Of a stretch of 22,495 bases of DNA, positions 4,407 through 15,079 are shown in pieces. Origin of the DNA: a virus; the IMG/VR virus record IMGVR_UViG_3300035698_011489, positions 1 through 22,495 of that record. The stretch is one strand, 5' to 3'. Each line of letters begins with the position of its first letter. Position 1 is the first letter of the stretch. The position numbers were made by a program, and so were the translations under genes. The notes below the pieces were generated by a model. It had not been told where the DNA came from. It saw only the letters and a program-made list of their open reading frames with translations, and did no database searches.

Positions 4407-5762
4407 TCATTTGGTTTTTCTGGTGCCAAATAATGACCCTTGAGAAAATCCACCTGGGAGCTTTATCATGTTCACAGCGGCATAACGGAATGCATCAGCA
4501 CCGTGTGAAAAGTTATCGTGATCTGGTTGATCAAATACCGTACCTGTCTTGCGGTCGGTCTTAGCCTTATAGTTTTCAAGTGCTACTATACCAGCTTCGC
4601 ATTTGACTGGGTTAAAGTAGCAGTGTGGTAAAAGAATACGAGCTGCCTCAATACCATCCTCAAAGCCTATACTTGGTGTGATGGTAAAGTTTACACCATG
4701 TTGTAAAGCAAAGTTAGCACGTGATACACCAATTGTGAAGTCACGATTTCGCATGTCATGCGGAGCAAAATGGGCGCCATAATTATATCCCTTACCTTTA
4801 ACGACTTTAATCCACTCAAGTAAACTGGTGTTGTTATTCTCCAGATAATCAATGAAGTGGAATTTACCAGCTATCTTCTGAAAGAACCATATACATGTCA
4901 AGTCCCTGATACCAATGTCCCATGCGGTAAAGACTGGGAAGTTAGAATCATACTTTATCTCAGTACTGATTCTATTTTGTTCCCTAGCCTTAATGATGTA
5001 GTCATAGTAGTAAGTTGCCGATGTATTGGCGAAGAAGTCGCAATACCATTCCTGCATCTTCTTTTCTTCACTCATGTTTTCACTGAAGATCTTAAAGTCG
5101 AATGTTTGATCGTAAAACGTATCAGCGACTGTCAGCTTCTGAACATGCCATGTCTTTTTCTTCTTTAACCCTTTCTCATACAACTTGAAGAAAAGATTCC
5201 GCCCTTTTGGTGTACCAAGAATAATAACGAACCAATTATCTTTACCAGCCAATGTTGGTAATAGAATTTCATCCCACAAGATATCAGGTAAATCCTGAGT
5301 CTCATCCATAACCACACCATGAAACCCTTGACCTCGCAATCGATCAGGTTCATGAGCTCCAAACAACCTGATAGTTGAACCATTAGGGTAACGAACAATC
5401 ATAAAGGACTCATTGAACCCAATGCCATTAACGTGTTTGGCATAGTTCTTTAATCGATCCCACGCAATACTCCGCACTTGGTCAGCAGTTGGTGCAATAT
5501 AGGCATAATGAGTGTTGGGAACGGTTAATGCCTTACGCTGTAGTTCATTAACTGCAAACTCAGTCTTACCACTACGACGATGACACACATATAAGTTGAA
5601 TCGCTTCAAGCTATTGTGTGCAGTCCATTGCCACGCTCTGGGCTTATATGGAATAACGTTTCTTCGTGGTCCCGCTGTACCCATTAGAGCCAGTGCAGGA
5701 GCCTCGAATTCAATAACATCATTCATCGGTTGGTTCGCCCTCATCCTCGTCATCAAGTTCAT
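4407..5762 (-). CDS. terL: Terminase large subunit (packaging ATPase-nuclease)
   Basis: This is the DNA-packaging motor. The N-terminal ATPase has a Walker A loop CHRRSGKTE (residues 60-68), Walker B VVMDE (140-144) and coupling motif LGTPKG (172-177). The C-terminal RNase H-like nuclease shows acidic residues in FTAWDIG (D272), the APHDMRNRDF segment (D326) and HGADAFRYA (D413), fitting the Terminase_3/6 pattern. The start is uncertain. The ATG at 5762 gives 451 residues and a 44-nt overlap with the small subunit. A second in-frame ATG at 5726 overlaps the small-subunit stop by 8 nt (ATGAATGA), which looks like ordinary translational coupling and may be the true start. Confidence 0.95.
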   Translation of the reverse strand: MNLMTRMRANQPMNDVIEFEAPALALMGTAGPRRNVIPYKPRAWQWTAHNSLKRFNLYVCHRRSGKTEFAVNELQRKALTVPNTHYAYIAPTADQVRSIAWDRLKNYAKHVNGIGFNESFMIVRYPNGSTIRLFGAHEPDRLRGQGFHGVVMDETQDLPDILWDEILLPTLAGKDNWFVIILGTPKGRNLFFKLYEKGLKKKKTWHVQKLTVADTFYDQTFDFKIFSENMSEEKKMQEWYCDFFANTSATYYYDYIIKAREQNRISTEIKYDSNFPVFTAWDIGIRDLTCIWFFQKIAGKFHFIDYLENNNTSLLEWIKVVKGKGYNYGAHFAPHDMRNRDFTIGVSRANFALQHGVNFTITPSIGFEDGIEAARILLPHCYFNPVKCEAGIVALENYKAKTDRKTGTVFDQPDHDNFSHGADAFRYAAVNMIKLPGGFSQGSLFGTRKTK

Positions 5763-6078
5763 CCATACTCATTGTGGCAGTAGCCATTGGTATAGTCCCT
5801 TCAGGTTCTGGTGGTAGCCATGTATAGGTATTACTAATAGCTTCACCATTCACACCACTCATTTCTATCTGTTTCAACTTTGGATACCGATAAGGCATAA
5901 GCTCAAGAGCGCATTTAATCCTTACTTGTTGGTCAGCAGTTGTATCAGCGAGTACTGTTGCCAAAAACTCAGCTGGGTCGATATAACCAGGTATGGCTGC
6001 AATTAATACTGCCATCTCCTCTGAGCGTTTGTTCTTTGAACCTTTCGGTCTACCAGCTTTTGCTTTCTGTTCATCCAT
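5719..6078 (-). CDS. terS: Terminase small subunit
   Basis: A 119-residue protein with an N-terminal AT-hook-like basic motif AGRPKGSKNK and a short helical core (ALELMPYRYPKLKQIE) typical of small terminase proteins. These bind the packaging site and load the large subunit. The C-terminus is strongly acidic (DELDDEDEGEPTDE), a common large-subunit contact. It is encoded directly upstream of the large subunit and overlaps it. No good SD precedes the ATG; the upstream sequence is A-rich. Initiation may depend on coupling to the 19-codon leader frame that ends 13 nt earlier. Confidence 0.87.
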   Translation of the reverse strand: MDEQKAKAGRPKGSKNKRSEEMAVLIAAIPGYIDPAEFLATVLADTTADQQVRIKCALELMPYRYPKLKQIEMSGVNGEAISNTYTWLPPEPEGTIPMATATMSMDELDDEDEGEPTDE

Positions 6079-6091
6079 ATTTTTTTATACT

Positions 6092-6151
6092 TTATTCACC
6101 TAACGGCGCGAAATACCACTCGAAGTAGTGGTAATCATCATATTTAGTCAT
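6092..6151 (-). CDS. Possible 19-residue leader peptide upstream of terS
   Basis: A short frame encodes MTKYDDYHYFEWYFAPLGE, with 7 aromatic residues out of 19. It ends 13 nt before the terS ATG. An AGGAGG lies upstream but about 20 nt from the ATG, which is too far for a normal SD. A 7-bp inverted repeat TACCACT/AGTGGTA (6114-6133) lies inside it. The frame is short enough to be chance. The unusual composition and the missing SD for terS are the reasons to record it. Confidence 0.3.
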   Translation of the reverse strand: MTKYDDYHYFEWYFAPLGE

Positions 6152-6200
6152 CTAAGCGTTTTAAAGTAGTAACCTCCTGTTATAGATATTTACCTCAAAC

Positions 6201-6232
6201 AAAAAAGCCAAGAGCAGATCACCGCTCTTGGC
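6201..6232 (-). terminator. Intrinsic terminator between lysis and head modules
   Basis: A perfect 9-bp GC-rich stem (GCCAAGAGC at 6207-6215 with 6224-6232) has an 8-nt loop and is followed on the minus strand by TTTTTT. It would stop minus-strand transcripts coming through the lysis genes in antisense, before the terminase genes. On the plus strand the tail is only CCCTTT, so it is mainly a minus-strand terminator. Confidence 0.75.
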
Positions 6233-6299
6233 CCTTTCTTCACAGGAGATACCAAGTTTCCTCAGCCTATTACTTAGCAAAATATTGATTATTTTGAGT

Positions 6300-6331
6300 T
6301 CATTTGATAGCCAAATTTGGCTATCAAATGA
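6300..6331 (+). repeat. Perfect 32-bp palindrome in the lysis-cassette leader
   Basis: The half-site TCATTTGATAGCCAAA (6300-6315) is followed with no spacer by its exact reverse complement (6316-6331). It sits 22 nt before the first lysis gene and just before its SD (AGGAGGGGG). No T-tract follows, so it is not a plain terminator. It could be an operator for a dimeric regulator, or an RNA hairpin controlling lysis-gene expression. Confidence 0.85.
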
Positions 6332-6353
6332 TAAGTAGGAGGGGGAATTAACC

Positions 6354-6611
6354 ATGAGTAAATTCAGCAAAGTTATGAAAGAGTTTCTCTTCATTGATGC
6401 TTTTACCGGCCAAGTTAGTCATACTAAGTTTTGGTCTAATGTCGGCCATGCGTTGGCTTGTGGTTTATTCGCCTTTTCAGTTATCACCGGTGATGCAAGT
6501 ACTGAGCTATGGTTTATATTTGGAACCTTGGTTATGGGTAATGCGACTGCTAATAAACTACTCAACATAAAATACGGCATACCAGCCAATCCAACGGATG
6601 ATAATAAATGA
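6354..6611 (+). CDS. Small two-helix membrane protein, holin candidate
   Basis: An 85-residue protein with two hydrophobic segments, roughly residues 28-45 and 51-66, separated by a short loop with Asp and Ser, and a charged C-terminal tail. The amphipathic N-terminus carries SHTKFW, reminiscent of the DUF2644 phage/prophage proteins. A small two-span protein first in a cassette that ends with a lysozyme is the usual holin position; holins form the inner-membrane lesions that release the endolysin. Start is set by a strong SD (AGGAGGGGG). Its stop overlaps the next start (ATGA). Holin function is inferred from topology and position. Confidence 0.72.
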   Translation: MSKFSKVMKEFLFIDAFTGQVSHTKFWSNVGHALACGLFAFSVITGDASTELWFIFGTLVMGNATANKLLNIKYGIPANPTDDNK

Positions 6612-7057
6612 CCACTCAGGACCCTAATAGAGATCAAAGAGATCTGTTAATCAAACTAGCTGCAAATTTCGATAATATGAACTCAAAATTTGATACTATG
6701 GTTGAAAACTTCAAGGAGTTTGAAAGACGACTTGATGATAAGTTTGTTGCCAAATCTGATCACGCAAAGCTATCTGAGCAAGTTATTCGATTAGAATCTA
6801 AGTTAAGCACTGAGTATGTTCCTCGGGCAGAAATACAACCAGTACTTGATACCCATAAGGCTATGACTGATAAGATACGAGCGTCATTCATTCGTTCTTA
6901 TTTCACCATCGGTGTTATCTCTATTGCCTTTCTTATTGCCATACCAGTTGGTTATAAGATTTACTCATCAGTGAATGAACTAGCCACCAATCAGAAGCAG
7001 TTAATTGAGCGAGTTATACAAGCAACTCCATGGCCATCAATAGGGGTTAAACGATGA
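6608..7057 (+). CDS. Coiled-coil single-span membrane protein of the lysis cassette
   Basis: The 149-residue product has a long hydrophilic, coiled-coil-prone N-terminal part (about 15-92, with FDNMNSKFDTMVENFKEFE), then one hydrophobic segment (about 98-117, FTIGVISIAFLIAIPVGY) and a 30-residue tail. It overlaps both neighbours by ATGA, so the three genes are translationally coupled. The architecture resembles XhlA-like or holin-associated proteins more than a classical i-spanin, whose membrane segment is N-terminal. No lipoprotein o-spanin frame was found nested in it. A role in holin regulation or lysis is inferred from context only. Confidence 0.72.
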   Translation: MTTQDPNRDQRDLLIKLAANFDNMNSKFDTMVENFKEFERRLDDKFVAKSDHAKLSEQVIRLESKLSTEYVPRAEIQPVLDTHKAMTDKIRASFIRSYFTIGVISIAFLIAIPVGYKIYSSVNELATNQKQLIERVIQATPWPSIGVKR

Positions 7058-8720: not shown

Positions 8721-9009
8721 ACATTTCACCCCATGCTAATAAAAACATCAAAGCATCAGATTCTGAGTAGAAGCCTATTTTGTAAAGCCACTTGAAATCA
8801 TCAAAACTATCTTCATCAAAGCCATCACCATCAAATTGATTATAGACTACCTTCTTTTTGACCTTGTACTTGATTTTGTTGTGATAACACCACGTTAGTG
8901 CTTTATGGTAATGCTCCATTTTCTCATCACCATAGGGTCTAATATCCCACCCAGGATCATTGAAATTAACGGTAAATTTGGCAGTTGGTGTTTTGGGTTC
9001 GTAGATCAT
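8719..9009 (-). CDS. Unrecognised 96-residue protein, acidic and aromatic-rich
   Basis: The protein has a Pro-containing N-terminus (NFNDPGWDIRPYGDEK), a basic patch (IKYKVKKKVV) and a strongly acidic aromatic segment (QFDGDGFDEDSFDDFKWLY), ending in a hydrophobic helix. The alternating charge blocks are distinctive. The acidic segment recalls DNA-mimic-like inhibitors, but I cannot assign it. Start: GAGG 7 nt before the ATG, and a 4-nt ATGA overlap with the 138-residue gene upstream, showing translational coupling. A terminator-like hairpin follows immediately. Confidence 0.68.
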   Translation of the reverse strand: MIYEPKTPTAKFTVNFNDPGWDIRPYGDEKMEHYHKALTWCYHNKIKYKVKKKVVYNQFDGDGFDEDSFDDFKWLYKIGFYSESDALMFLLAWGEM

Positions 9010-9422
9010 TTCATTTCCTCAAATAATAGTTTAAAAACGAAACGCGGTTCCGAGTCCATCATGTGTTTGAGGTACGCTCTCGGGTGCCCAAACTCCCCAT
9101 TGACTGTTATCCACCATGTAGCGCCGCGCTCGCTCTTTAAAAGTTCCTTGAATGCTGCCAGTTGTGGCTCCGATATCACCTTCATGAACTCTTTGATTTG
9201 TACTTTGCTTTTCGTTCGACTCACTAACCACTTGAATCGAATCACTTGGGAGTAGTCCACTTGTTTTTTGCTTCCGATTAATTCTGGCCAGCAGCTCTTC
9301 TGGGCATAAAGCTTCGATTCCTGTATTGCGTTTAGGTAGTTCAGCTGTGAGTTCACTATCGAGTTGTAAGCTTCCATCTTCTGGTTCTTCAACGCAATCG
9401 GATCTTTGATTTGTTCTAGCAT
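9006..9422 (-). CDS. Unrecognised 138-residue protein nested in the 3' part of a larger gene
   Basis: This frame lies +1 relative to the 312-codon gene and shares 392 bp with it on the same strand. The ATG at 9422 has AAGGGA about 9 nt upstream and an in-frame stop a few codons before that. Its stop overlaps the next ATG (ATGA). The product looks like a folded, mostly helical protein with a C-terminal segment ATWWITVNGEFGHPRAYLKH and balanced hydrophobics. That makes it the more protein-like of the two frames in the shared region. No family is recognised. A frameshift joining it to the upstream frame is an alternative. Confidence 0.65.
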   Translation of the reverse strand: MLEQIKDPIALKNQKMEAYNSIVNSQLNYLNAIQESKLYAQKSCWPELIGSKKQVDYSQVIRFKWLVSRTKSKVQIKEFMKVISEPQLAAFKELLKSERGATWWITVNGEFGHPRAYLKHMMDSEPRFVFKLLFEEMK

Positions 9423-9969
9423 TATCGAATTTCCCTTTTAAGTTGTCTTCTAAATCTTTAGCTGCATCATAGTAGCCAATCATAATTGGCGCTTTAGTGG
9501 TAGTTGATAGTTTGGCTGGACTTAGCTCAATATTAATAATTTCACCATCCCACATCATTTCAACATTCACTTTGCAAGTTTCAGAAGTATCGCCTGCTTT
9601 GATTGTAAACCAGCAGTTGGTACTCGTATCTGATTTACGGTGAACGTATCTTGCACCTGCCTTCATTTCAGTAGTTGATATTAACCTGAAGCCAAACATA
9701 GATCTTTCAAAATCCTTGCATAAAATCTTGTATTTGGCCATAACATTGATTGCCATGTCTTCACCAGCTACAGTCTTTACCTTTTTGCGCAAGTTTCTGT
9801 TTTTGTTATCAGATAAAGGAATGATGAATTCATTATCACGGCTTCTGGCTGTTCTATACTTGATTTTAAGCACATGAGTTGACATGCCTTTCTTGGTTTC
9901 TTCATTAAAAAAGTATTGAACGCGTAGGTGAACTAGTTTTTTCTTGTTCGGTAGTTCATAAATTTGCAT
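9031..9969 (-). CDS. Unrecognised 312-residue protein, first gene of the minus-strand run
   Basis: Residues 1 to about 180 look folded, with basic beta-rich sequence (KKKLVHLRVQYFF, HVLKIKYRTARSRDNEFIIP, RYVHRKSDTSTNCWFTI). The remaining ~130 residues are polar and low in hydrophobics (SDSIQVVSESNEKQSTNQRV), look disordered, and are the part that overlaps the 138-codon frame. The start has GGAG about 9 nt upstream and follows a highly structured leader (9992-10098). Third-position A/T preference persists through the overlap, so this frame may really be translated to its end. No family is recognised. Basic N-terminus plus position beside iterons would allow a DNA- or RNA-binding role, but nothing proves it. 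Confidence 0.66.
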   Translation of the reverse strand: MQIYELPNKKKLVHLRVQYFFNEETKKGMSTHVLKIKYRTARSRDNEFIIPLSDNKNRNLRKKVKTVAGEDMAINVMAKYKILCKDFERSMFGFRLISTTEMKAGARYVHRKSDTSTNCWFTIKAGDTSETCKVNVEMMWDGEIINIELSPAKLSTTTKAPIMIGYYDAAKDLEDNLKGKFDNARTNQRSDCVEEPEDGSLQLDSELTAELPKRNTGIEALCPEELLARINRKQKTSGLLPSDSIQVVSESNEKQSTNQRVHEGDIGATTGSIQGTFKERARRYMVDNSQWGVWAPESVPQTHDGLGTAFRF

Positions 9970-9991
9970 ATTTGTTTACTCCAATGACGAA

Positions 9992-10098
9992 ATGCGTAAT
10001 AGGCGGGGGCACCTATTACGCATCGTCGAGTGGCTGACCACTAGGGGATCAACCACTTGTTAACTTTGCAAGATTATCAGCGCCCCCGCTGCATCTTG
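9992..10098 (-). promoter_or_regulatory. Structured leader with complementary hairpin loops
   Basis: Hairpin B is a perfect 12-bp stem (9992-10003 with 10012-10023) whose loop reads CGGGGGCA on the plus strand. Hairpin A is a two-part stem (CAAGAT 10069-10074 with 10093-10098; CAGCG 10078-10082 with 10087-10091) with a CCCC loop. GCGGGGGC (10003-10010) is the exact reverse complement of 10082-10089, so the loops could kiss. A small 5-bp hairpin (AGTGG/CCACT, 10029-10042) lies between. In the minus-strand transcript this is the 5' leader of the 312-codon gene. Confidence 0.6.
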
Positions 10099-10113
10099 TC
10101 TCTTATTTAATCT

Positions 10114-10143
10114 ATTATGATACGAAGTGCTGAATAGTCGCAA
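10114..10143 (-). promoter_or_regulatory. Candidate sigma70-type promoter for the 9969 operon
   Basis: On the minus strand, TTGCGA (10143-10138) is followed after 18 nt by CATAAT (10119-10114). A TATCAT in the same place is an alternative -10 at a shorter spacing. The inferred start near 10107 would give a leader of roughly 138 nt containing the paired hairpins. The match is moderate and rests on sequence only. Confidence 0.35.
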
Positions 10144-10462
10144 TATATCATCAATAAATTTCACGAATTAGTGTAGGTGGACATTGGACCTACGGCTGCA
10201 CATTTATCGCTTACCTGGAGTTCTGGCATCAGGTTTTTATTTAATCCACACCCGACAGTAACGCCATTGCGTTCTTTTATGCCTCACATGTGCAATATGA
10301 TATGCGAAAGTGGAAAATACAACCATATTTATAATCATCAAAATCACGCCCTTTTATATCTCGGCAGTCGCCAACCAATATCATGGGACTATCTGGCGAA
10401 GGAAGCGACGCGACTAGAAATCAATGGTCTTCTGGTATTCACCCAGATAAGCTAGTGCAGCG

Positions 10463-10533
10463 GTAGGTAATCACAGGTGACGAACGACAGTGAGGATCTG
10501 TGATTACCGCTTGGTACGAAGGACCAAGCCTAC
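10463..10533. ncRNA. Multi-hairpin candidate RNA structure
   Basis: GTAGG (10463-10467) can pair with CCTAC (10529-10533), enclosing two hairpins: GGTAATCACAG (10466-10476) with 10498-10508, an 11-bp stem with a 21-nt loop, and GCTTGGT (10509-10515) with 10523-10529 around an ACGAAGG loop. Two GG/CC positions are shared between helices, so they would compete. Similar ACGAA words occur in three successive loops. The strand of transcription is unknown. No known RNA class is recognised. Confidence 0.4.
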
Positions 10534-10582
10534 GAAGTAGTGACCCATGAAATTTCTCAAAAAATCATGGTATGTCGTGAAA

Positions 10583-10722
10583 CGCGTACCTTATTCTCTT
10601 TCAGAGCCATCTATAATAATAGAAGAGAATAAGGTACGCGATTTGGTTTACAACCAACCGCCATGAAGAATAAGGTACGCGGTTGTATTTGGCTGTGCAT
10701 CTAAAAGAGAATAAGGTACGCG
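10583..10722 (+). repeat. Iteron array: three direct and one inverted copy
   Basis: The 13-bp core AATAAGGTACGCG occurs at 10628-10640, 10669-10681 and 10710-10722, so starts are exactly 41 bp apart (about four helical turns). A fourth copy is inverted at 10583-10595. With flanks, the inverted copy and the first direct copy form a perfect 18-bp inverted repeat (10583-10600 with 10623-10640) around a 22-nt AT-rich spacer that contains TATAAT at 10612-10617. Two of the direct copies share the longer form AAGAGAATAAGGTACGCG. This phasing is typical of cooperative binding sites for an initiator, partition or regulatory protein. Confidence 0.85.
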
Positions 10723-10738
10723 ATAATGAACAATCGTG

Positions 10739-10766
10739 AAAAAGGCCACATAAGTGACCCCTTTTG
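10739..10766 (-). terminator. Imperfect terminator after the 75-residue gene
   Basis: AAAAAGGCCAC (10739-10749) pairs imperfectly with GTGACCCCTTTT (10754-10765) around ATAA, with one mismatch and one bulge. On the minus strand it ends in CCTTTTTC. It lies 18 nt beyond the stop of the 10784-11011 gene. Confidence 0.5.
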
Positions 10767-10783
10767 ATTCGAGTAGGTTGCTA

Positions 10784-11011
10784 TTACTTGGTGAATAGCT
10801 TAACTAATACCGTGATAGCACTTGATACCGTTGGCCACAGCACCATGAAATCATTTGAAGTACCGTAAGCTTTTTCCAACATAACTCGCACCAACTCAAG
10901 TTTCATAGCTCCCTTACCAGATTCAGGTACTGCTTGTTCGATTGTCTTAATTGCTTGGATGACTACTGGTAGCAATTGCACAGTTGCTACGAAAATTTGA
11001 ATTGCATTCAT
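10784..11011 (-). CDS. Small hydrophobic phage protein (75 residues)
   Basis: Two hydrophobic helices (about residues 3-22, IQIFVATVQLLPVVIQAIK, and 57-73) flank a polar middle with EQAVPESGKGAMKLELVRVMLE. I recall similar short proteins with an E-x-A-x-P-x-S-G-x-G signature as hypothetical, possibly membrane-associated proteins in phages of proteobacteria. Their function is not known to me. AAAGG lies about 9 nt before the ATG, and the preceding gene's stop is 1 nt away. It is the last gene of the small minus-strand operon starting at 11380. A holin-like role is possible but not supported by context, since the lysis cassette is elsewhere. Confidence 0.7.
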   Translation of the reverse strand: MNAIQIFVATVQLLPVVIQAIKTIEQAVPESGKGAMKLELVRVMLEKAYGTSNDFMVLWPTVSSAITVLVKLFTK

Positions 11012-13331: not shown

Positions 13332-13733
13332 ATGAACAAATACCCCGAAATCGAAGCAAAATATAACCTGAAACCTGCACAATGTCAGGATTTATTTAGG
13401 CGCTTTAGTAGCCAAAAGAATACCGCACTCAAACGAAAAGATAAAAATAACCAACCAATTACTTTTGATCTCACATTTGAACAATGGCTGCGCATCTGGG
13501 AATCAAGTACACATTTGAACCAGAGAGGTGTAGGCATTGGAGAATACGTGATGAGCCGTAAAGGTGATATTGGTGGTTATACGATTGATAATGTCGAAAT
13601 CCAACTGGCGAGTGAAAACTCACGCCAAGCAAACTTGGATAAAGTAAAACCGCAAGAAACGCGATTGAAGATAAGCCAAAGTCTAAAAAAGACTTTGGCT
13701 GCGCGATCAAATAACCGCTCATCTCCAACTTAA
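13332..13733 (+). CDS. HNH/NUMOD-like, probable homing-endonuclease-type gene
   Basis: A 133-residue basic protein on the strand opposite to its tail-gene neighbours. The central segment GIGEYVMSRKGDIGGYTIDN followed by VEIQLASENSRQAN resembles the (G)GY..xNV.....EN pattern of phage HNH-type homing nucleases. The end, ETRLKISQSLKKTLAARS, resembles a NUMOD3 DNA-binding helix. A canonical His-Asn-His triad is not visible, so activity is doubtful. AGG 6 nt before the ATG supports translation. The gene overlaps the convergent tail gene by 4 nt and has a divergent neighbour 35 nt away, consistent with an inserted selfish gene. Confidence 0.66.
   Translation: MNKYPEIEAKYNLKPAQCQDLFRRFSSQKNTALKRKDKNNQPITFDLTFEQWLRIWESSTHLNQRGVGIGEYVMSRKGDIGGYTIDNVEIQLASENSRQANLDKVKPQETRLKISQSLKKTLAARSNNRSSPT
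13674..13700. repeat. 10-bp inverted repeat inside the HNH-like gene
   Basis: AGCCAAAGTC (13674-13683) pairs perfectly with GACTTTGGCT (13691-13700) around TAAAAAA. It lies in the 3' coding part of the plus-strand gene, about 30 nt before its stop. It lacks a T-run beyond the stem on either strand, so it is more likely an RNA stability or processing hairpin than a terminator. Confidence 0.6.
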
Positions 13734-15079
13734 GCTGGGTTGCTGTAGTTACGCTCAAGTGCTGGTGCCAACAAGATTGATTGACCAGCAGCTCTTGTAA
13801 TCGTTGATGATACTGCAACGTACTGTCCACCCGTCAAGCCAATACCAACCAAAGTCACAGCAGGGCTTGTTCCAGCAGTTCGTCCACCTTGTATGTTGGT
13901 ATCATATGCATACGTGAAGCTTACTGGAGCGCCGCTATACGTGCCTGTAATATCCACACCGTCTTTGTCCTTTACAATCACAGCGGTACCAGTTCCATAA
14001 TTACCACCTGGGTTAGAAGTATAGTAAAGAACGTACTTAAAGTCGCCCGTTCCAGCATTGGCTCCAAAGTTGATCGTACCAGCAGCTACGAATGGATAGA
14101 TTCGGTTGATACCGTTCTTGTCAAACAAACTTACGCTGTTCAGGTAATTACTATTCAGGTTATCGATTGCAACACTCGTACTACCAACCAATGTATCACC
14201 AACGAACTGCACCAAAGCGTCAGCAGTCGCACCAGTTACCGTGCCAGCGCCAGCATCAATGTCACTGTTCTGACGCAGTGAATACTGAAGCTTGGTGTAA
14301 ATCTGAGCAGTTGATGCATTACCTGAGGCATCACTAACCACAATACGGAAAGGAGCTGATGTACCATCAATATTGCGCATTTGATCGGCAGCGAAATACT
14401 CAACTGTAATCTGGTTGTAAGGTGCAGTACTTGATACCGTTGCATCATTAGCAGCTACTTTCAAGTCTGTGGCATTTGATAGTGGGAAGCGGTAAACTTG
14501 GAAGGTCAATGTTGCTGCACCAATACTAGCATTGGTGGAAGCAGAATATGTTTTGCCGTATTCACGAACATAAAGTGTCAGCGTATCACCACCGTCTGAG
14601 TAATCAAAGTTACCATTCGTGGCATCACCGTAAATCTGAATTGCTTCGTTGGTAGCACCTGGGAAACTGAACGTTGCCTTAGTGCCATTGTTCCAGCGGT
14701 AATAGGGCTGGTCGGTTGCACCAAGTGATCCCAGTGTCACGATGCCCATGTACTTGCGCCTTACCAGACCCCCGGCATCTTTTTCAGCCCAACCAGCATT
14801 GCGGATCAGCTTACGAGTCGTATCATCTTTTGGTGCCCAGCCATTAAATTCAAATTGTTCACCAGTAATGGCTTCCATTGGGAATGGAAATTTGATGAAC
14901 GTTGAACTGGCTTTCCACTGTTCTTTTAGCCAGCTATAAAGTGCTTGACCTGATACACCACCGCTGTTACCAGCATTGGTGACGCTACCAGTCGTTTTAA
15001 TTTCAATAGTTCGTGCAGTGGTATCAATTACGATATCAGTTGTTAGAGCTAGGTTATCGGGGTCCGTAATCAATGGCAT
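13730..15079 (-). CDS. Tail protein, beta-rich (449 residues)
   Basis: The N-terminus (MPLITDPDNLALTTDIVIDT, RTIEIKTTG, QALYSWLKEQWK) and the FNGWAPKDD.TRKLIRNAGW segment place it in a family of siphovirus distal tail proteins. The remainder is beta-rich, with many Thr, Ser, Gly and Asn residues. The C-terminus ILLAPALERNYSNPA is shared with the 872-residue protein encoded upstream (ILIQPVIDRNYSNPA), which suggests a common terminal module. GAGGAA before the ATG. It belongs to the tail operon after the gpJ-like gene. A role in the tip complex or host recognition is inferred from context. Confidence 0.82.
   Translation of the reverse strand: MPLITDPDNLALTTDIVIDTTARTIEIKTTGSVTNAGNSGGVSGQALYSWLKEQWKASSTFIKFPFPMEAITGEQFEFNGWAPKDDTTRKLIRNAGWAEKDAGGLVRRKYMGIVTLGSLGATDQPYYRWNNGTKATFSFPGATNEAIQIYGDATNGNFDYSDGGDTLTLYVREYGKTYSASTNASIGAATLTFQVYRFPLSNATDLKVAANDATVSSTAPYNQITVEYFAADQMRNIDGTSAPFRIVVSDASGNASTAQIYTKLQYSLRQNSDIDAGAGTVTGATADALVQFVGDTLVGSTSVAIDNLNSNYLNSVSLFDKNGINRIYPFVAAGTINFGANAGTGDFKYVLYYTSNPGGNYGTGTAVIVKDKDGVDITGTYSGAPVSFTYAYDTNIQGGRTAGTSPAVTLVGIGLTGGQYVAVSSTITRAAGQSILLAPALERNYSNPA

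Follow-up and report, generated by a model that had tools for sequence, protein, structure and literature searches.

The phased repeat array in this phage genome is best explained as a platform for a sequence-specific phage DNA-binding protein, functioning as an iteron-like region for the start or control of genome replication, a reading to which we assign a probability of roughly 0.4. The gene next to the array, 9031-9969, most likely encodes the binder. Phages devoid of nearly all replication genes exist (PMC11348598). A relative of the phage, described below, has a 32.7-kb circle-assembled genome in which no replication gene was recognised, as well as one conserved array next to a conserved gene of unknown function, and it offers a small, testable candidate pair of origin and initiator.

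The array and its surroundings

The window, meaning here the whole stretch of 22,495 bases that was analysed, is a virus record and represents an incomplete siphovirus genome. Its minus strand mainly carries the genes for the portal, scaffold, major head protein, tail J-like protein, tail fibres and terminases, the plus strand carries an endolysin cassette, and small genes lie in between. The array sits in an 814-bp intergenic region that extends from the gene at 10784-11011 to the gene for a 312-aa protein at 9031-9969, both on the minus strand (Table 1).

Table 1. Features of the array, its flanking non-coding DNA and the neighbour gene (window coordinates)
Feature	Positions	Strand	Remarks
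Array-adjacent gene, 312 aa	9031-9969	minus	N-terminal ~185 aa are a remote homologue of the 234-aa protein of the related phage G001; candidate array binder
Perfect 12-bp inverted repeat, 8-nt loop	9992-10023		directly upstream of the 9031-9969 gene
Strongly structured non-coding stretch, array to gene	10425-10570		z -4.1 (plus), -4.5 (minus); includes inverted repeat 10466-10476/10498-10508
Site 0, inverted AATAAGGTACGCG	10583-10595	minus	nearest the 9031-9969 gene; arm of the perfect 18-bp inverted repeat with site 1
Inverted-repeat spacer, 22 bp, 68% AT	10601-10622		TATAAT at 10612-10617 on plus
Site 1, direct AATAAGGTACGCG copy	10628-10640	plus	
Site 2, direct AATAAGGTACGCG copy	10669-10681	plus	41 bp from site 1
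Site 3, direct AATAAGGTACGCG copy	10710-10722	plus	41 bp from site 2
Terminator-like hairpin AAAAGGGGTCAC-TTAT-GTGGCCTTTTT	10736-10772	minus	folding, -13.3 kcal/mol; parts the array from the 10784-11011 gene

The repeat unit is a 13-letter word, AATAAGGTACGCG, present in four exact copies. An earlier note on this DNA had described three direct copies spaced 41 bp apart, a fourth, inverted copy that pairs with the first in a perfect 18-bp inverted repeat, and a TATAAT in the spacer, and each of these statements was confirmed: the start-to-start steps of the direct copies are 41 and 41, the arms of the inverted repeat occupy 10583-10600 and 10623-10640 (21 bp at 95%), and the TATAAT is where the table places it, with no convincing -35 partner on either strand. 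The two outer direct copies, sites 1 and 3, agree at 96% over 23 nt, the middle copy matches less well beyond the core (70%), and the bases common to all four copies are AGAATAAGGTACGCG.

The word is also unique, as the note had proposed, for no further copy was found in the window even when 2 mismatches were allowed; shuffled sequences yielded a mean of 0.35 such matches, and none of 100 shuffles reached 4. A phage promoter family, in which the motif would stand before many genes, had been named as the alternative and is disfavoured, the motif being confined to this one array. The window has 14 9-mers that recur with a 41-bp step and have an inverted copy close by; when the 814-bp intergenic region was dinucleotide-shuffled 1000 times, not a single such 9-mer arose. 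The array is not a product of chance. Its AT content is 58.6% as against 58.3% for the whole window, the DnaA box TTATNCACA is absent from the window, and GC skew is uninformative. A CRISPR-like array was considered improbable on the repeat and spacer lengths usual for CRISPR.

The DNA between the array and the neighbour gene folds strongly. The ~650 nt that lead from the core of the array up to the start of the gene (9960-10612) fold on the minus strand with a z of -5.8 (20 shuffles), and Rfam returned no family at gathering threshold, the weak miRNA matches stemming from the inverted repeat itself. The non-coding stretch 9975-10574, whose folding on the minus strand is far above that of shuffles, could be a phage structured RNA, and the inverted repeat at 9992-10023 is a possible attenuator or leader hairpin.

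A related phage and the neighbour gene

Several routes were taken in the search for relatives, and close ones proved few. The exact core patterns had no match in IMG/VR, a search from which close copies of the genome that the window belongs to may be missing, and the neighbour protein (9031-9969) retrieved nothing from IMG/VR and phage records. The large terminase of the window retrieved only phages related by that gene, with at most 42% identity, and none of the other window genes were found in them. The tail protein encoded at 13730-15079 led to IMGVR_UViG_3300037418_001138 (L092), hereafter G001, the only genome-wide relative found for the window phage; a tail-protein query found no relative among GTDB genomes, and relatives by tail fibre only (L091, L093, L099-L111) had no such array within the stretches examined. 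Two further uncultured phages carry short repeats accompanied by inverted copies, one with a step of 41 bp (AAGCATATGC; L036 283-334) and the other with a step of 38 bp (TATGCTTAGC; L032 5778-5870).

The contig of G001, a siphovirus (L094/L095), is 32,809 bp long. Its ends overlap by 127 bp, so that G001 was treated as complete, assembled as a circle of 32,682 bp. G001 and the window are colinear over the stretch that begins with the J-like protein and takes in the fibres, and the endolysin, TerS and a holin-like gene are also common to both phages. G001 genes were called mechanically; 30 of their products were scanned in PHROGs, 10 of these also in Pfam, and the larger unscanned tail proteins were assigned by synteny. 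The scanned set is made up of structural, packaging and lysis proteins, two HNH endonucleases, one marginal HTH protein and small unknowns, and among these 30 no polymerase, primase, helicase, Rep, integrase or Par/partition protein was recognised. By synteny, the window lacks a part that in G001 holds head-tail and tail genes over about 8-11 kb, so that the window phage, too, is probably without recognisable replication genes. The large terminases of the two phages (window 4407-5762; L095 11312-12652) best match different groups, pelagiphage-like in the former and Kagunavirus/Dhillonvirus-like in the latter. From sequence comparison, differing large terminases in two syntenic phages with homologous TerS proteins appear to be a mosaic swap.

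G001 carries an array in the matching place, between the genes at 5300-5647 and 5928-6632. CTTATT begins at 5703 and 5744 and AATAAG at 5785, with steps of exactly 41 and 41, and the inverted hexamer copy is the one nearest the gene, the same polarity as in the window, where these hexamers begin at 10590 (inverted), 10628, 10669 and 10710 (steps 38, 41, 41). The repeat unit differs, AATAAGGTACGCG in the window as against AATAAGAATGAC in G001, and blastn of the window array region against the whole G001 genome detected no significant similarity; what the two phages keep in common is the spacing, the polarity and the position before the next gene. The earlier note had named absence of the 41-bp phasing in relatives as a result that would refute its reading; G001 retains this phasing, with the same polarity and with a homologous gene adjoining.

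The G001 array came to light through inspection of the syntenic interval, and the same interval served for the shuffle test: shuffles of this 280-bp gap produced a 41-bp match in 0 of 1000 cases and any phased match in 2 of 1000. An IMG/VR scan with the pattern CTTATT, 30-38, AATAAG, 35, AATAAG returned 28 stretches. Matching bases around the hexamers number 30 in the window, 27 in G001 and 23 in the next best stretch, the last without a contiguous shared unit; the matches other than G001, with their weaker and non-contiguous extension, were judged to be chance. The register of the two arrays was set by the hexamer positions, MAFFT having misplaced the sites because one array holds three direct copies and the other two. 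The AATAAG hexamer common to both phages could be partly fortuitous. The conservation argument draws on one relative and leans on the 41-bp step, the polarity and the neighbour gene. The G001 array is 75.5% AT as against 57.0% for its genome, and the distance from array to gene start is 614 bp in the window but only 132 bp in G001.

The gene next to the G001 array encodes 234 aa. BLASTP between this protein and the 312-aa protein of the window gives a weak match (E 4.1); the global alignment score of the conserved parts is 39.5, above all 2000 shuffles (mean -31.4, sd 12.2). In local alignment, 4 of 2000 shuffles reached the score of the real pair. When non-structural genes were scored across the two phages, only the endolysin, TerS and the holin-like protein ranked above the neighbour gene; apart from the genes for these three, it is the clearest conserved gene of the small-gene region. 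Neither protein has a match in Pfam, PHROGs or NCBIfam, and these databases gave no similarity to a Rep initiator (Rep_3, RepA_N, RepA) for either one. The neighbour protein has no sequence match in the PDB, and the two structure predictions obtained were too poor to use (mean pLDDT 34 and 32). The 234-aa protein is slightly acidic (pI 6.2), whereas the N-terminal part of the window protein is basic (pI 9.5). A shorter ORF at 9006-9422, with a weak PHROG match (phrog_16123), overlaps 9031-9969 by ~390 bp in a different frame of the same minus strand; these may be overlapping genes, or a frameshift, in the gene or in the assembly, may have rendered the C-terminal part of the 312-aa protein spurious.

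The array position, polarity and phasing are thus kept jointly with the identity of the next gene while the word and the protein have diverged, a pattern that fits a cognate pair, in which protein and site would be expected to diverge together.

Possible roles of the array

With sites about four helical turns apart, bound molecules would lie on one face of the DNA, where they could join and bend or wrap it, and the inverted copy together with site 1 would form a symmetric operator whose core is AT-rich and contains the TATAAT. The main job of such a complex would be to start or control replication by recruiting the host replisome; a second would be self-control of the 9031-9969 gene by its product. 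It is the anatomy that suggests replication as the main job, since direct iterons together with an inverted operator of the same word before the binder gene recall an iteron replicon. In such replicons, Rep occupies the iterons and, by way of an inverted-repeat operator of the same word that lies before rep, also represses its own promoter (PMC3557383). Here, a comparable anatomy, the inverted copy with site 1, lies upstream of 9031-9969 and of its G001 homologue, the initiator role of the gene being putative. The replication role and the identity of the binder are what we infer from the array, phasing, polarity and homologous neighbour that are observed. The replication role is favoured by the uniqueness of the array, its retention in G001 even though the DNA is unalignable, the homologous neighbour gene that has diverged along with the word, and the lack of a recognised replication gene in G001; against it stand the single relative, the missing DnaA box, the lack of AT enrichment, as an unwinding region would show, in the window array though not in that of G001, the absence of a skew signal, the lack of similarity to Rep, the unequal array-to-gene distances and the unlike pI of the two proteins. 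Although phased direct repeats are present, membership of the iteron class is not claimed, because the initiator that defines the class was not recognised. Cumulative GC skew, which the earlier note had recommended as a check, was computed for G001 and has its minimum near 32.0 kb and its maximum near 4.0 kb; it reflects the direction of the genes, and the array, at 5.7 kb, is not picked out as an origin. Of the note's broader proposal, the idea of phased binding sites for a DNA-binding protein finds support in the unique motif and the conserved phasing; sequence does not choose among origin, centromere and operator. It is enticing to speculate that the array and neighbour gene form the replicon of a group of small tailed phages that otherwise rely on the host to replicate, with a new initiator family acting on four-turn iterons and with word and protein changing together, a doubtful extension at present.

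A cooperative operator with no part in replication is a tentative competitor that is only slightly less probable. A regulator, encoded by the adjacent gene or by another small gene of the phage, would occupy the four sites and repress or activate the 9031-9969 promoter, perhaps through a DNA loop that joins the inverted copy to the direct ones. The array does lie directly upstream of the gene with its polarity kept in two phages, the inverted repeat encloses a TATAAT-like core, the upstream terminator-like hairpin isolates the unit, and G001 encodes a 96-aa protein with a marginal HTH match that might serve as regulator. No good sigma-70 promoter was found in the window array or the G001 array, however, and the operator would serve a single gene because the array word occurs nowhere else; the start of replication of a genome without recognised replication genes would also stay unexplained. 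The structured DNA invites an RNA-primed origin, in which that stretch would be an initiator RNA, as in ColE1 and in parABS mycobacteriophages without RepA, and the array would control its promoter. Its folding far exceeds that of shuffles and RNA-based phage origins are known (PMC7157519), yet G001 keeps the array without the structured stretch, its 132-bp gap folding ordinarily (z -0.5), and the lack of an Rfam family likewise counts against this reading, which we consider very improbable.

A packaging site, at which the small terminase protein would bind the repeats in the manner of the lambda cosB R sites and so start DNA packaging, finds some encouragement in the TerS common to both phages, with its GRPKGS basic motif. 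It is nevertheless improbable, if slightly less so than the RNA-primed origin, because the array is far from terS (~4.5 kb in the window and ~6.4 kb in G001, beyond the lysis genes); cos and pac sites lie next to or inside terminase genes, and the array does not. In addition, the large terminases match different phage groups while the array format is kept. Phased repeats are also typical of partition, recombination and mobile-element sites, and the confirmed array would suit a partition centromere or a site of either other kind. No ParA/ParB, integrase or resolvase was recognised in the incomplete window or in G001, however, and a centromere is disfavoured because this complete relative shows no partition or lysogeny gene; we rank this explanation as the least probable of all.

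Comparison with known systems

Operators with direct repeats that are bound by phage repressors or activators, such as P2 C and 186 CII, consist of phased cooperative sites near a promoter at about two-turn spacing. The array described here shares the phased-site plan but has four copies at about four turns. The RNA-based prophage origins of parABS mycobacteriophages resemble the window in that no repA was found and a structured non-coding region lies near the presumed origin (PMC7157519); they differ in that parABS is absent here and G001, which keeps the array, shows no such structured region. In the PLE satellite replicon of Vibrio cholerae (RepA_N with iterons), a small phage-like genome likewise has one non-coding repeat region, its origin, and its own initiator (PMC7145576), but the PLE initiator is recognisable as RepA_N, whereas none was recognised here.

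There is also a likeness to iteron theta replicons with an autoregulatory operator (pPS10, pSC101, pMbo4.6; P1 oriR). The array departs from these in its step of 41 bp, about four turns, as against about 20-22 in theirs, in having only two or three direct copies, in a neighbour protein without detectable Rep similarity and in the absence of a DnaA box. What it shares with them is the arrangement known from the plasmids, namely phased direct repeats joined by an inverted version of their word close to the gene for the presumed binder (PMC3557383).
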